Assembly: GCA_003864495.1 (NCBI GenBank)
Contig: ML133395.1
Span: forward strand, 849,698-913,697
Origin: Nemopilema nomurai
Taxonomy: Eukaryota; Cnidaria; Scyphozoa; Rhizostomeae; Rhizostomatidae
Length of the DNA stretch: 64,000 nucleotides
Direction of reading: 5' to 3'
Shown here: one piece after another, positions 40,584 to 62,358 of the stretch
Layout: the number at the start of each line of letters is the position of its first letter
Position numbering within the stretch: position 1 is the first letter of the stretch
Translations under genes and position numbers: made by a program
Notes under the pieces: generated by a model
Databases searched by the model: none
Told to the model about the DNA's origin: nothing
Seen by the model: only the letters and a program-made list of their open reading frames with translations

Positions 40584-40647
40584 ATGCAGCTTTTGTCATA
40601 CCTTGTCGTATACTGGGTTGCTGATAACGTTCATGGATCGATATCTG
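40584..40647 (+). other. Signal-peptide exon of the receptor-channel
   Basis: The exon encodes MQLLSYLVVYWVADNVHGSIS and ends at a phase-1 GTAAGC donor. The hydrophobic core LLSYLVVYWVA fits a cleaved signal peptide. The phase matches the acceptor at 41595, where the PA14-like domain begins. Signal peptides are commonly encoded by such a separate short phase-1 exon. Confidence 0.72.
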
Positions 40648-43600
40648 GTAAGCCACTGTCAGTCTTTGCTTGAAAGTTTTCAATAACAGCGTCACTGACT
40701 CTGATTCTTGCGGACATTCAAACAAGCACTGTTTACACTACCACATTTTACCTGGTTAACGCTCACCCAGGCTCAACCGAGGTTGACACAATCGTGACTA
40801 AAGGACTAAACGTGAGCATGACGCAATCAATTCTTGCCTTAAACTGGTGCCGCGAGAATGCTTCGCTCCAGAAAGCTTTTAGAGCAAAGTCACTCTTAGG
40901 CATGGCTGTGATAAATAAAAGCGAATCTTATTAGAAAAAAAAATATTGTCAGATATGCCCAGTAAACGCAATCGCCGCTGTTAGATGGTAAATGCTAAAG
41001 GGTAGCTGACAGATTAGTTAACGCGCGTTGGATTTTGAATTCCTCGTGACCAAAATTGGAAAAAAGCGTTGTAATCGCGATTTTTCAACAAAATGCTGGT
41101 AAGAAGTCGCAGATATAATGTAGTTACAAGGTGAAATGAAGTTTCACATACTGGAAATCAATTTTCTAAAGTAATTTTATTCATTTGCCATGGGACTTTT
41201 CCTGACGCACTGTTGACATGGATCATGAACTTATTTTGAATGTTTAGGCCTATATTGATACTCCGATTTGCTAGTTGTTGAATAGCTCATTTTCCTCCAA
41301 CATTATTTCACATTATTGGGTAATGGTATTCCCCTGGCAGCTCTCGCATTTTATTTATAGGGGAATATCAAACTGCCTTTTTCCCACTACCATAATTTCC
41401 GATGCATATTCATATAAGAGTTTTTGCAAGTCCAAGATGATACATTTCGAAAAGCTTTTAAAATGACGTGTTGATCAAATGTGAACAGGAAATCATTCGC
41501 GAAAATGCTTTGCCACTTACTGTGCTTTGACGCTACTAAATGCTGGTGCAATGTGAACGTAGCCCCCTGACTCTAGCCTCAATCTTTTTTAAAGCATTCT
41601 ACCAGCCAGGACCAGGAGCAATCTTTGAGACTTGGCTATCAAGAAACCTCTACAGCTTTCAGAACATGAAAAACATTCCGGACTACCCAAGCTGCCCTAC
41701 ATATGTTCAAAATGGAGACAGCTTTGCGACCAATGGGGTGTGTCTTGGTAAGAAGCAATATGGGCGATATCGAGCATTCTTTACATCATCGCAAACAGGC
41801 ATGCACAAGTTCTTTGCTGTGTGCGGTAACCAGTGCAAAGTCTACATCGAAAAGAACCCCACTGGGTCAGTGAAAATGATAGATGTGAATTATCAAACTG
41901 GAAGTGATTGGGGATCGAGGTAGGTGAAGGATCGCTACTAGCAGTTAACCAAGAATATACAAAATGCGTCATTACTGAAAGGTTTGAAATTAAGAATGTA
42001 CTAGCTTCTACTAGCTTCAGACCATGAGTCAAGATGGGCAGCAAAGTTGTATTTGAAGCATTAGCCTTTGATTATAGCAAATGCTTCTATAAAACGTTCT
42101 CTTAAAGCAGTCTCTACTTGCTCAGACTAGCAATAATGTTCTCTTCAGCTGTCGTGCGTTGAAGAAGCCTATTGAATTTTGGCATATGTTTAGAATTTGT
42201 TACGATGTAAGATTTGAAACGTAACGCGATTGGTTGCAGAGGCAAGCCAACGCAAAACAGCCACGTGTATCGTCGTTGATATGGATGTGACAAGTTCCAT
42301 CAATTCCCTTTAGGCCCGTTCAGTAGAAGGGCACAAATGAATCACTGTGCAACTCACATTAAGGATTCAGGTGGACACAACAAGTGGAACCTATGTATTC
42401 TATTTCAAATCCCATTTCCTAGCAATATTCTTGGATTGGGTTGCAAATATTACTTTAAAGACAAACGTTTGCATGTTTTTGACTAGATAAAAGAAGCAAT
42501 CATCTTTATTGCACTTGACGCTAGATCGCGATACGTTTTCGAAAATCAATTTTGTTCATTTCATCTGCAGGAAATCGTCGAATGACATAGAATTGGTTCA
42601 AGGGTACAGATATGAAATAACAGCATCTCACATCAGCTATTGCACTGGCGATGACTACTTCAAGCTTGGGGTTCAGTTTCCTGACGGGACAGAGAGCAAG
42701 CCGATACAGAACCAGTACCTAAAGAGATCAATGAGTATGAGAAGTTAGCGCAGGAAATATGTTTTTTAGGCAGAAAGGTTTCAAGAAACACATAACACTA
42801 CGGGAGACAGAGCAGATACTTGTTATTGGCTGCATGGATCTGCGTGTCAATTGTTTCATGGTTTATTAATAGATTTCTCTCTATTTGTTCCTTTCCTTTC
42901 TTACTCGTACTTCATTGTTTTTCCTAGGTCACTATAAATGGACAGGGGTGATTGCCCAAAAGTACGGCAGCTTTGCTTTTCCATCTTGGGATAACATTTC
43001 ACTGGCGTATGCCTATGCCAACAACCCAAGCTATCCGAACAGTCCATCTTCCTACACTTGCAAGTCGACACTGTACGATGAATTTCAGTACCTGAACTTA
43101 GGCGACAGCTATGCCCTGCGTTACATTGGGTACCTCAAGGTCGCGACAACAGGTGTCCTAAAGCTAAAGATGTGGTGTAACGAGATTTGTGAATTCTTCT
43201 TAACGAAGAGCAATGTTGAGTCAAGTCTAGGCCAATTCGTAATTAGGGAGTATGTTTCCTTTTTTTACTTTTTGATATATAGCATACATGACATGTTTAA
43301 CAATTACAGTTTTAAAGATTGATTAATGATTATTGGTAGATTAAGTGTATTTATCTGTAAAACATAACAGGACCTCCTATTGACTAGAAATTGAAGGAAG
43401 GAACGGGCAAAACTTTGATACAAAAAAATACATGAACAGAAAAGCTTGCAATAAATTTCGAAGGGTACGTTTGGCAGTCGTGAGGCAGATGTAAATTATG
43501 AATGACTGTAGGGTGAAATAAAATGAAGTAGAAATATGACAAATGAAAGAACGAAACTAACAGAGAAGAAAGTTTTATAGAAAAATTAAACATCTTTCAT

Positions 43601-61600: not shown

Positions 61601-62358
61601 AACAATTCCCACCAGCTCCAGAGGTCTCACTTCTCCCACCTTTGACGTGTTCAATTCTTACAAGGATGTCTTTACTGTAGAAAGTAAATAAATCTAGCGA
61701 AAAGAAGCATTCGATTACAATTACATTAATTTCGTTTGGTCTTATGTTCCTAGCTGCATCTCCAACTTCTTCTTTCGGTATTCCAAGGTCTTTTATTACT
61801 TAGTGGATAGTAGGTTTTCCCCCTATCATCTTGAAATTTATCATTAATGCATTCTGGTCATCGCTCAATATAGCATCTTTTTCTAGTAAAACGTTCCCCT
61901 TTCTCATATATATCATGCATCTATTAGGTAAACAAGCTCTCTCCTCCTACTCATGTCTTTAATCCTCTTGTCATGCGGCTTATACAAATACAGTTCAAAT
62001 ACAATTTTCATTACAAGGCAGGGCGAAAATCGATATAGCTGATTCAGAGGTCCAGGGACTGTTTCAAAACGTATCGAAGGCGTTAGAAAAGCTTGAAAAC
62101 GACATCGTGGAGAAGGTTGAGAGTTTGGAATGCAAACATGGAGCGGAATTGATGAAGCTGAACGGAATGCATTATGGGAAGACGTCCAAGCTTGTGTCGA
62201 TGTATCCTGACTTGAGCATGTTCGACCCTGCCATGCCGAAGTCAAATAAGACCAGATCCAAGGACAGCACAGAGACAGACGCCTATAAGGAGCATCAATG
62301 GTATGAGTCTGACGGGGATTCCCTAACGGATATGCCAATTGACTACATGGACTTCTAA
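40584..62358 (+). CDS. PA14-FN3 receptor fused to iGluR-like K+ channel, 22 exons, 1813 aa
   Basis: Exons: 40584-40647, 41595-41919, 42571-42734, 42928-43249, 43847-44025, 44456-44779, 46269-46577, 46712-47005, 47477-47770, 48031-48330, 48545-48862, 49817-49923, 56169-56394, 56507-56863, 57071-57373, 58052-58530, 58891-58985, 59335-59494, 59769-59832, 60267-60535, 61109-61256 and 62018-62358. They total 5442 bases, with phases agreeing at all 21 junctions; 20 introns are GT-AG and one is GC-AG. Predicted order: signal peptide (1-21), two PA14-like domains (22-184, 185-352), nine FN3 domains (about 352-1295), ligand-binding lobe S1 (about 1296-1435), M1 (1436-1455), pore with TVGYGD (1485-1490), M3 (1500-1526), lobe S2 (about 1541-1670), M4 (1677-1695) and a 118-residue cytoplasmic tail. 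The filter predicts a K+-selective channel; the ligand is unknown. No named family with this architecture comes to mind. Weakest points are the choice of exon 1, the short exon at 59769 and the acceptor at 57071. Confidence 0.88.
41595..44025 (+). other. Two PA14-like domains of the receptor-channel (4 exons)
   Basis: The first domain (exons 41595-41919 and 42571-42734) reads GAIFETW, IPDYPSCPTYV, YGRYRAFFTSSQTGMHKFF, GNQCKVYIE, DIELVQGYRYEI and DYFKLGVQFPDGTESKPI. The second (42928-43249 and 43847-44025) repeats the plan in a more diverged form: NPSYPNSPSSY, YALRYIGYLKVATTG, EICEFFL, then DYIRVTHKQ. The pattern of NYP-like segment, YG-R-x-F, TG-x-x-F, a C-x-x-x-C or D-x-C bend and a final LGV-x-PDG strand matches PA14-type beta domains, which often bind glycans. 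Assignment is by eye. Confidence 0.65.
45084..45405. repeat. 15-bp minisatellite in receptor-channel intron
   Basis: About 21 copies of a 15-base unit TTTCCTGCGTGCAAA occur with two recurring variants, CTGCGAGCAAACTTC and CTGCTGCGAGCAAAC. It lies between the exons ending at 44779 and starting at 46269. It creates stop-free frames on both strands that are not genes. Confidence 0.92.
49100..49394 (+). pseudogene. 3' end of a LINE (C-terminus of its second ORF) in receptor-channel intron
   Basis: The plus-strand frame 49108-49341 includes RTSRALHSQKIIPKFGRVDT and then FFFSIIPIWNSLPDNVVN before a stop. The aromatic IPIWNSLP-x-x-V tail is typical of the last residues of CR1/L2/Jockey-like LINE proteins (established knowledge). 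Right after a short 3' UTR the trinucleotide array at 49395 begins. Only the 3' end is present, as with 5'-truncated LINE copies. Confidence 0.72.
49395..49591. repeat. (GAT)n microsatellite
   Basis: About 65 near-perfect GAT triplets are broken once by an extra G at about 49500. The array follows directly the 3' end of the LINE relic. Confidence 0.97.
50984..55424 (+). pseudogene. THAP9/P-element transposase gene, frameshifted
   Basis: Four exons can be read: 50984-51132, 51877-52072, 52410-54563 and 55171-55424. The first two form a C2CH THAP zinc finger: CCAFGCNKRRK, KWLTAMHRLDW, ICSDHF and the closing AVPS. The third holds a coiled-coil-like Leu/Gln segment (about 52560-52700), then SFALTLQFYSAKAYEFVRK, MLDEMAIKKHVSWDG (part of the RNase H-like core), GFLLAISSIKGIFHDLVEAG and QDHLELFFGAIRSAGGF, all typical of THAP9 and P transposases. 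Between about 53140 and 53590 the frame breaks several times, with another break near 54240, so this copy is unlikely to make active transposase. The THAP exons and the last exon are open. Confidence 0.9.
51182..51207. repeat. (AT)n microsatellite
   Basis: About twelve AT dinucleotides in the first intron of the transposase gene. Confidence 0.9.
56071..56145. repeat. 30-bp tandem duplication next to an acceptor
   Basis: Two and a half copies of a 30-base unit containing GCCACATTGTAGAAGATGAT. The array ends about 23 bases before the acceptor of exon 56169. Confidence 0.85.
58052..61256 (+). other. iGluR-like K+ channel core of the receptor-channel
   Basis: Six exons encode, in order: lobe S1 with AMEAIASGTHLAVPIFENG and LLSTKNLLVFIRTP; helix M1 PLCLLSLILTVLAAIVFWVL; a pore helix and filter WLAFITMTTVGYGDLVP; helix M3 ending FISMVVGNLSSLM; lobe S2 with VLTSEELFMTATKLYG, SGDVTRVIIDYYQAW and ASYGIVLAGEAKRVQECI; and helix M4 FYGGVILVALLILGILSEI. 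The order S1-M1-P-M3-S2-M4 is the eukaryotic iGluR plan, whereas the filter is that of K+ channels and of bacterial GluR0. The codon for the first Gly of the GYG is split by the intron 58986-59334. Confidence 0.85.

Follow-up and report, generated by a model that had tools for sequence, protein, structure and literature searches.

Does a single jellyfish gene join an adhesive extracellular region to a K+ channel core of the ionotropic glutamate receptor (iGluR) type and, if so, is it a singular chimaera, and how might its product work? The locus that raises this question lies in a stretch of 64,000 nucleotides from the scyphozoan Nemopilema nomurai (GenBank assembly GCA_003864495.1, contig ML133395.1, positions 849,698 to 913,697 of the forward strand), here called the window. 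A preliminary description, made from the letters alone, had read it as one PA14- and FN3-bearing ectodomain fused to an iGluR-like K+ channel. An independent rebuild from the raw sequence arrived at the same gene: 22 exons on the forward strand between positions 40584 and 62358 join in one frame to give 5442 nucleotides and 1813 amino acids with a single terminal stop, and the phases agree at all 21 junctions. Judged by sequence comparison, the gene is a member of a receptor-channel family with varied ectodomains, and its product is probably a receptor of the adhesion type in which a K+ pore is opened by a clamshell domain.

Of the three proteins matched when the channel part served as query, P0001 (1757 amino acids) and P0002 (2204 amino acids), both from EukProt, are collinear with the window protein at identities of 64.9% (1137/1751) and 42.6% (769/1807), respectively. 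The exon junctions are ungapped at 19 of 21 positions against P0001, the exceptions being 1/2 (a three-residue difference) and 2/3 (P0001 is without the second part of exon 2), and at 20 of 21 against P0002, where 1/2 is again the exception. Twenty of the 21 introns are of the GT-AG type, and the GC donor of intron 12 (exon 12 ends at 49923 and is followed by gcaagt) is supported by the ungapped alignment of junction 12/13 in both relatives. When P0001 was compared with the window by tblastn, 20 of the 22 exons were matched at more than 45% identity, exons 1 and 21 being absent from the match list. Since P0001 and P0002 are collinear across both parts, the FN3 and channel exons are taken to form one gene, as first described. 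It might be objected that an FN3/PA14 adhesion gene has been wrongly joined to an adjoining channel gene, given that the join in the window gene is read from sequence alone and that both relatives may themselves be gene predictions. Such a misjoin was rejected as extremely improbable: the FN3-to-channel junction 15/16 is ungapped in two single proteins and phase 1 matches at the join, all 13 FN3-type members of the family described below pass from FN3 straight into TC[RP]C, and eight array units elsewhere in the same genome have the same exon order on one strand. P0002 extends beyond the collinear part into the beginning of another copy, which points to a tandem array in its species as well.

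The channel part of the window protein follows the order S1-M1-pore-M3-S2-M4 in the family alignment, with TVGYGD as the filter, which bears out the core as first proposed; Ion_trans_2 scores 53 bits (Pfam cut-off 22.5) and Lig_chan 33.2 bits (cut-off 30.8). Hydropathy gives three membrane stretches corresponding to M1, M3 and M4, to which the model of an ortholog's core adds a pore helix; the six helices with a charged S4 that mark voltage-gated K+ (Kv) channels were not found. In a sequence search of the Protein Data Bank (PDB), matches to Kv channels span M1 to M3 only, and the 60 matches listed per search, K+ channels and similar proteins aligned around the pore, were of little use. The AlphaFold model of the ortholog's core (pLDDT 84) has AMPA and NMDA receptors and the GluR0 ligand core as PDB matches and predicts a bilobed S1-S2 fold split by the pore, the feature that had been set down beforehand as a check. 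With this predicted fold, the pore and M4, the core falls into the iGluR superfamily. A fold search of viral structures with the same model gave a single match below an E value of 0.001, a giant-virus protein (BFVD E3T502 of Cafeteria roenbergensis virus, annotated as an amino acid transporter; Foldseek E 1.4e-12).

The gene does not stand alone. With the channel region of P0003, a Clytia protein, as query, 16 proteins were listed, namely the query, 14 members of the same family (P0055-P0068) and an oomycete channel (P0069) that is not of the family. Together with the window protein and P0001-P0003, these make up the 18 members with a whole core on which all residue counts are based; the fragment P0004, the only member recognised among 51 listed protein matches, is without S1 and was left out of the counts. 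Ten of the 14 proteins P0055-P0068 carry a species name, and all ten are cnidarian (Rhopilema, two; Oculina, three; Nematostella, three; Porites, one; Dendronephthya, one), so that what had been described as a single chimaera gives way to a family in which every named member is cnidarian and the ectodomains are of several kinds. The family was found in anthozoans, a scyphozoan and a hydrozoan, by three protein searches restricted by shared words, length and, in one of them, candidate number, from which members outside cnidarians could have escaped. All 18 members keep four cysteines: two precede S1, spaced C-x-C in the FN3 type and C-x5-C in the EGF type, and two, spaced C-x-x-C, follow the first S1 helix. 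The filter is TVGYGD in 17 and TLGYGD in one. When a tree was built with two GluR0-type rows included, all 18 members grouped together (100/100), and the window protein, P0001 and P0002 made up a subgroup (100/100); the order of several inner forks is unsettled, and P0068, which may be a wrong gene model, sits on a long branch whose place is unsure. In the core, P0057 and Rhopilema P0056 share 70% identity, which hints at a medusozoan origin of P0057.

The domain immediately preceding the channel is FN3 in 13 members and EGF in five. Farther out, a Pfam scan of the family other than P0057 and P0058 gave Laminin_G_3, F5/8C, TSP1, SRCR, MAM, TLDc, SEA, pentaxin, TNF and C-type lectin domains above the cut-off, varying by member, and C1q and Ig below it only; wrong gene joins may be included in P0067 (PHD fingers) and P0068 (lectins after the channel). 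In the window protein fn3 was found in eight stretches. Eight of the nine FN3 domains first proposed reach the cut-off when tested singly, the eighth (residues 1076-1194) barely so (25.1 bits against 25), and the first (residues 352-459) stays below it at 14.2 bits. For the domain pair at the N-terminus, GLEYA, a PA14-like family, scores 51.4 bits in P0002, above the cut-off, and 25.9 bits in P0001, just below the cut-off of 26.2; because of these scores the pair is labelled PA14/GLEYA-like with moderate confidence, and a paralogous exon in the same genome gives 21.5 bits for PA14 (cut-off 24). The signal peptide attributed to exon 1 is plausible and stays putative, that exon having no homology support. 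A LIVBP-type amino-terminal domain is usual in eukaryotic iGluRs and not in GluR0; none was present among the seven Pfam families matched up to an E value of 1 in the window protein.

The same genome (G000, 212.9 Mb) was searched with the S1-M1 exon of an array copy as the query, which gives lower bounds. The S1 exon is present at at least 28 places: contigs C60 and C73 carry ten whole copies (98-100% identity) and five broken ones, and further places are two more on C60 (36%), one on C122 (35%), that of the window (37%) and nine distant ones (22-29%) that rest on a single exon. The region C73:50001-250000 holds eight array units in which, as in the window gene, PA14-like exons are followed by FN3 exons and then channel exons, all on a single strand; tblastn did not detect exons 1, 19, 21 and 22 in any unit and missed exons 5, 9, 11-14 and 20 in some, exon 11 having no match in five. 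Some units are damaged by stops or split exons, and pseudogenes or assembly errors are therefore present in the arrays.

The units share their backs and differ in their fronts. Among matches that are long enough and free of stops, amino-acid identity between units is 100% in exon 10 (eight units) and 97-100% in exons 16 (six units) and 20 (seven units), with minima of 93% in exon 15, 95% in exon 18 and 89% in exon 17. Exons 2-8 fall into two front classes, A (two of the eight units) and B (six), with lowest identities of 25-50%. Between the classes, mean amino-acid identity is 30-50% in exons 2, 3, 4, 6, 7 and 8, where synonymous divergence (dS) is mostly saturated, and 98-100% in exons 10, 14-18 and 20, where dS is 0-0.05. 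The DNA of units 0 (class A) and 4 (class B) is 99.2% identical across 10.1 kb from base 9,905 of the gene stretch, introns included; between about bases 1,900 and 9,000 (exons 3-8 and about half of exon 2) blastn gave no match of at least 150 bases, and upstream of base 1,914 there are three short ones. As near-identical backs carry fronts with mostly saturated dS, either an exchange of fronts or a homogenisation of backs must be recent when set against the divergence of the fronts. Genome-wide, A-type exon 4 occurs at five places at 93% or more, B-type exon 4 at 13 whole places at 86% or more and one partial place at 84%, and intermediates at two whole places (60% and 46%). On C60, the two genes with the other type of channel each have one of the five A-type places about 9-10 kb upstream on their own strand; these match positions suggest one front used with two backs.

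Exons of iGluRs without a K+ filter are also present in this genome, so the receptor-channel family is additional to ordinary iGluRs. On C19, at about 6.23-6.37 Mb, there is a tandem array of 17 Lig_chan matches; in the three that were read (L006-L008) the exons are long and open and the printed part shows no K+ filter, and two of them have an M3 of SAYSANL type.

Channels of the iGluR type are tetramers in which closure of the clamshell opens the pore, and a filter of the T-V-G-Y-G type goes with K+ selectivity. In the mechanism proposed here, about nine FN3 domains would make up a rod with two PA14/GLEYA-like domains at its tip, and a four-cysteine linker would tie this rod to the bilobed S1-S2 domain, itself seated on an iGluR-type pore of four subunits that bears a K+ filter. 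Contact or a ligand from outside, acting through the PA14/FN3 part, the S1-S2 clamshell or both, would close the clamshell and thereby pull M3 open, and the cell would hyperpolarise because K+ leaves it. The adhesive front or its ligand would drive or bias the clamshell through the cysteine-linked FN3 stalk, and adhesion or glycan binding is inferred as the stimulus for the K+ current.

Several observations weigh against this mechanism, which is itself built on sequence and model, the core model being a monomer of the ortholog and not of the window protein. The N-terminal 351 residues of the window protein have no Pfam match, PA14 and GLEYA included, so that fn3, Ion_trans_2 and Lig_chan among the domains first proposed are recognised in this protein directly and the two PA14-like domains through its relatives; a structure model of the pair from three sequences reached a mean pLDDT of 34 with no usable fold. 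Ten of the 12 array pore exons inspected on C73 and C60 read TAGYGD and two TVGYGD (with an inferred splice position), and K+ selectivity may therefore differ within the family; the window and C122 genes retain TVGYGD. In iGluRs an arginine of S1 binds the carboxylate of the amino acid and an acidic residue of S2 its amino group. In the aligned column none of the 18 members has arginine (ten Phe, five Tyr, two His, one Asn), against both of the GluR0-type controls; the alignment has gaps in this loop, and five of the 18 rows have an arginine within four columns. This absence makes a classical amino-acid ligand unlikely, and the retained S2 acid (17 Asp, one Glu) makes an amine possible; with the arginine gone, the clamshell may bind a ligand other than an amino acid, or nothing.

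The same residues bear on two other readings. In one, the protein is an ordinary small-ligand-gated K+ channel, whose clamshell would bind a diffusible amine or other small molecule and whose FN3/PA14 rod would anchor or place it; retention of the S2 acid in all 18 members, a clamshell predicted to be intact, and a constant core behind ectodomains that vary in type, as expected of an anchor, speak for it. The lost S1 arginine does not, and an ectodomain of about 1300 residues together with the exchange of diverged fronts in tandem arrays is much for a mere anchor, which leaves this reading unlikely. In the other, a non-gated adhesion receptor would signal through its cytoplasmic tail and the core would be degenerate or a constitutive K+ leak. 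The lost arginine would fit, as would the tail motif YPDL..FDP and the C-terminal PIDY common to the window protein, P0001 and P0002; that the tail aligns poorly outside this subgroup, and that the invariant columns of the family gather at the M1 end, the pore and M3, render it improbable.

If the adhesion-type receptor-channel is preferred, a wider role may tentatively be suggested, namely a cnidarian recognition system in which diversified lectin or adhesion fronts are recombined in tandem arrays onto a constant clamshell-channel back, such that recognition of a partner cell, symbiont, microbe or prey surface would lead to immediate hyperpolarisation without G proteins or kinases. Nematocyst control and epithelial sensing, suggested in the preliminary description, found no support in this analysis. 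Two results count against such a role. Only two main front classes were read, and positive selection was not found on the class B fronts, for which the ratio of nonsynonymous to synonymous divergence (dN/dS) is 0.24-0.55 in exons 2, 3, 4, 6, 7, 8 and 9 in a small comparison of 15 pairs of related copies that is disturbed by gene conversion; dN/dS is higher, at 0.79, in exon 15 of the back half, and dS is zero in exons 17 and 20.

The exons and the neighbouring genes are listed below. The seventh FN3 domain is split by intron 12 (49924-56168, 6.2 kb). P-element-type transposase open reading frames (ORFs) inside this intron, at 52359-54344, have Tnp_P_element, TNP-like RNaseH and GTP-binding insertion domains and may account for its length. 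The sequence and translations also show repeat tracts at 45070-45432, 19760-20734 and 49390-49590, the last being a GAT trinucleotide tract in intron 11.

Exons of the receptor-channel gene and neighbouring genes in the window
Feature	Position	Strand	Content	Evidence
Exon 1	40584-40647	+	Start codon, putative signal peptide	Frame, GT donor; no homology support
Exon 2	41595-41919	+	First PA14/GLEYA-like domain, part 1	Splice sites; aligns with P0002, partly with P0001
Exon 3	42571-42734	+	First PA14/GLEYA-like domain, part 2	Splice sites, relatives' alignment, tblastn
Exon 4	42928-43249	+	Second PA14/GLEYA-like domain, part 1	Splice sites, alignment; GLEYA match at this region in P0001
Exon 5	43847-44025	+	Second PA14/GLEYA-like domain, part 2	Splice sites, relatives' alignment, tblastn
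Exon 6	44456-44779	+	FN3 1, degenerate, under Pfam cut-off	Splice sites, alignment, single-domain Pfam test
Exon 7	46269-46577	+	FN3 2	Splice sites, single-domain Pfam test
Exon 8	46712-47005	+	FN3 3	Splice sites, single-domain Pfam test
Exon 9	47477-47770	+	FN3 4	Splice sites, single-domain Pfam test
Exon 10	48031-48330	+	FN3 5	Splice sites, single-domain Pfam test
Exon 11	48545-48862	+	FN3 6	Splice sites, single-domain Pfam test
Exon 12	49817-49923	+	FN3 7, part 1; GC donor	Splice sites, Pfam test, relatives' junctions
Exon 13	56169-56394	+	FN3 7, part 2	Splice sites, Pfam test, relatives' junctions
Exon 14	56507-56863	+	FN3 8, at Pfam cut-off	Splice sites, single-domain Pfam test
Exon 15	57071-57373	+	FN3 9, membrane-proximal	Splice sites, single-domain Pfam test
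Exon 16	58052-58530	+	Four-cysteine linker, S1 lobe (ligand-binding domain), M1	Splice sites, family alignment, ortholog model, residue counts
Exon 17	58891-58985	+	M1-pore linker, pore helix, TVGYGD first half	Splice sites, family alignment
Exon 18	59335-59494	+	TVGYGD second half, M3	Splice sites, family alignment
Exon 19	59769-59832	+	Start of S2 lobe	Rebuilt frame, family alignment
Exon 20	60267-60535	+	S2 lobe with conserved acidic residue	Rebuilt frame, family alignment, residue counts
Exon 21	61109-61256	+	S2-M4 linker, M4	Rebuilt frame, family alignment
Exon 22	62018-62358	+	Cytoplasmic tail, stop	Rebuilt frame, relatives' alignment, tblastn
Kindlin-type exon	13521-14195	+	Neighbouring gene	
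bZIP factor	28379-29437	-	Neighbouring gene	
Mitochondrial ribosomal protein L28	33175-33528	+	Neighbouring gene	
Histone ORF, presumably H4-like	63662-64000	-		Pfam histone-fold matches

K+-selective glutamate-receptor-like channels are known from bacteria and one rotifer protein. Animal iGluRs (AMPA, kainate, NMDA, epsilon and lambda) share the S1-M1-P-M3-S2-M4 fold with the window protein, which departs from them in its K+ filter, in the absence of the ligand arginine and in giving no Pfam match to their usual amino-terminal domain. The family is easy to overlook because at least two of its members bear misleading database names: the cnidarian proteins entered as `sidekick-1' or `PTPRQ-like' (Nematostella P0060 and Rhopilema P0066), names that probably reflect their FN3 repeats, belong to it by sequence and have its channel core. 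Among the papers listed, none describes members with FN3, EGF or PA14 domains in its title or abstract, a scope that mostly excludes subscription journals, and the label `undescribed-looking' given to the gene at the outset can be kept in these terms; the main text of a survey of metazoan iGluRs, as far as it was available, contains no words beginning with potassium, fibronectin or GYG (PMC6307864).

That glutamate-receptor-like channels can be K+-selective is already shown by GluR0 and AvGluR1, and what appears new here is the placing of FN3, EGF or PA14-like ectodomains on an iGluR-type channel with a K+ filter. GluR0 of Synechocystis and other GluR0-type prokaryotic K+ channels have two membrane helices, according to the parts of the source consulted (PMC12332018), whereas the window protein has in addition an M4, a cytoplasmic tail and an adhesive ectodomain of great length, and is without the ligand arginine. 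AvGluR1 of the rotifer Adineta vaga is, in the portions of the reports seen, an iGluR-type channel of an animal with a K+ signature filter, as in the receptor-channel family, and is selective for K+ over Na+; it is described there as having eukaryotic iGluR architecture and amino-acid gating (PMC12226733, PMC12332018), and this description sets it apart from a cnidarian family with FN3 or EGF ectodomains and no ligand arginine. Interchangeable adhesive ectodomains would widen the range of what K+-selective glutamate-receptor-like channels can sense, a surface-recognition module may here directly gate an ion channel, and recognition becomes testable in an array where one constant back carries two diverged fronts.

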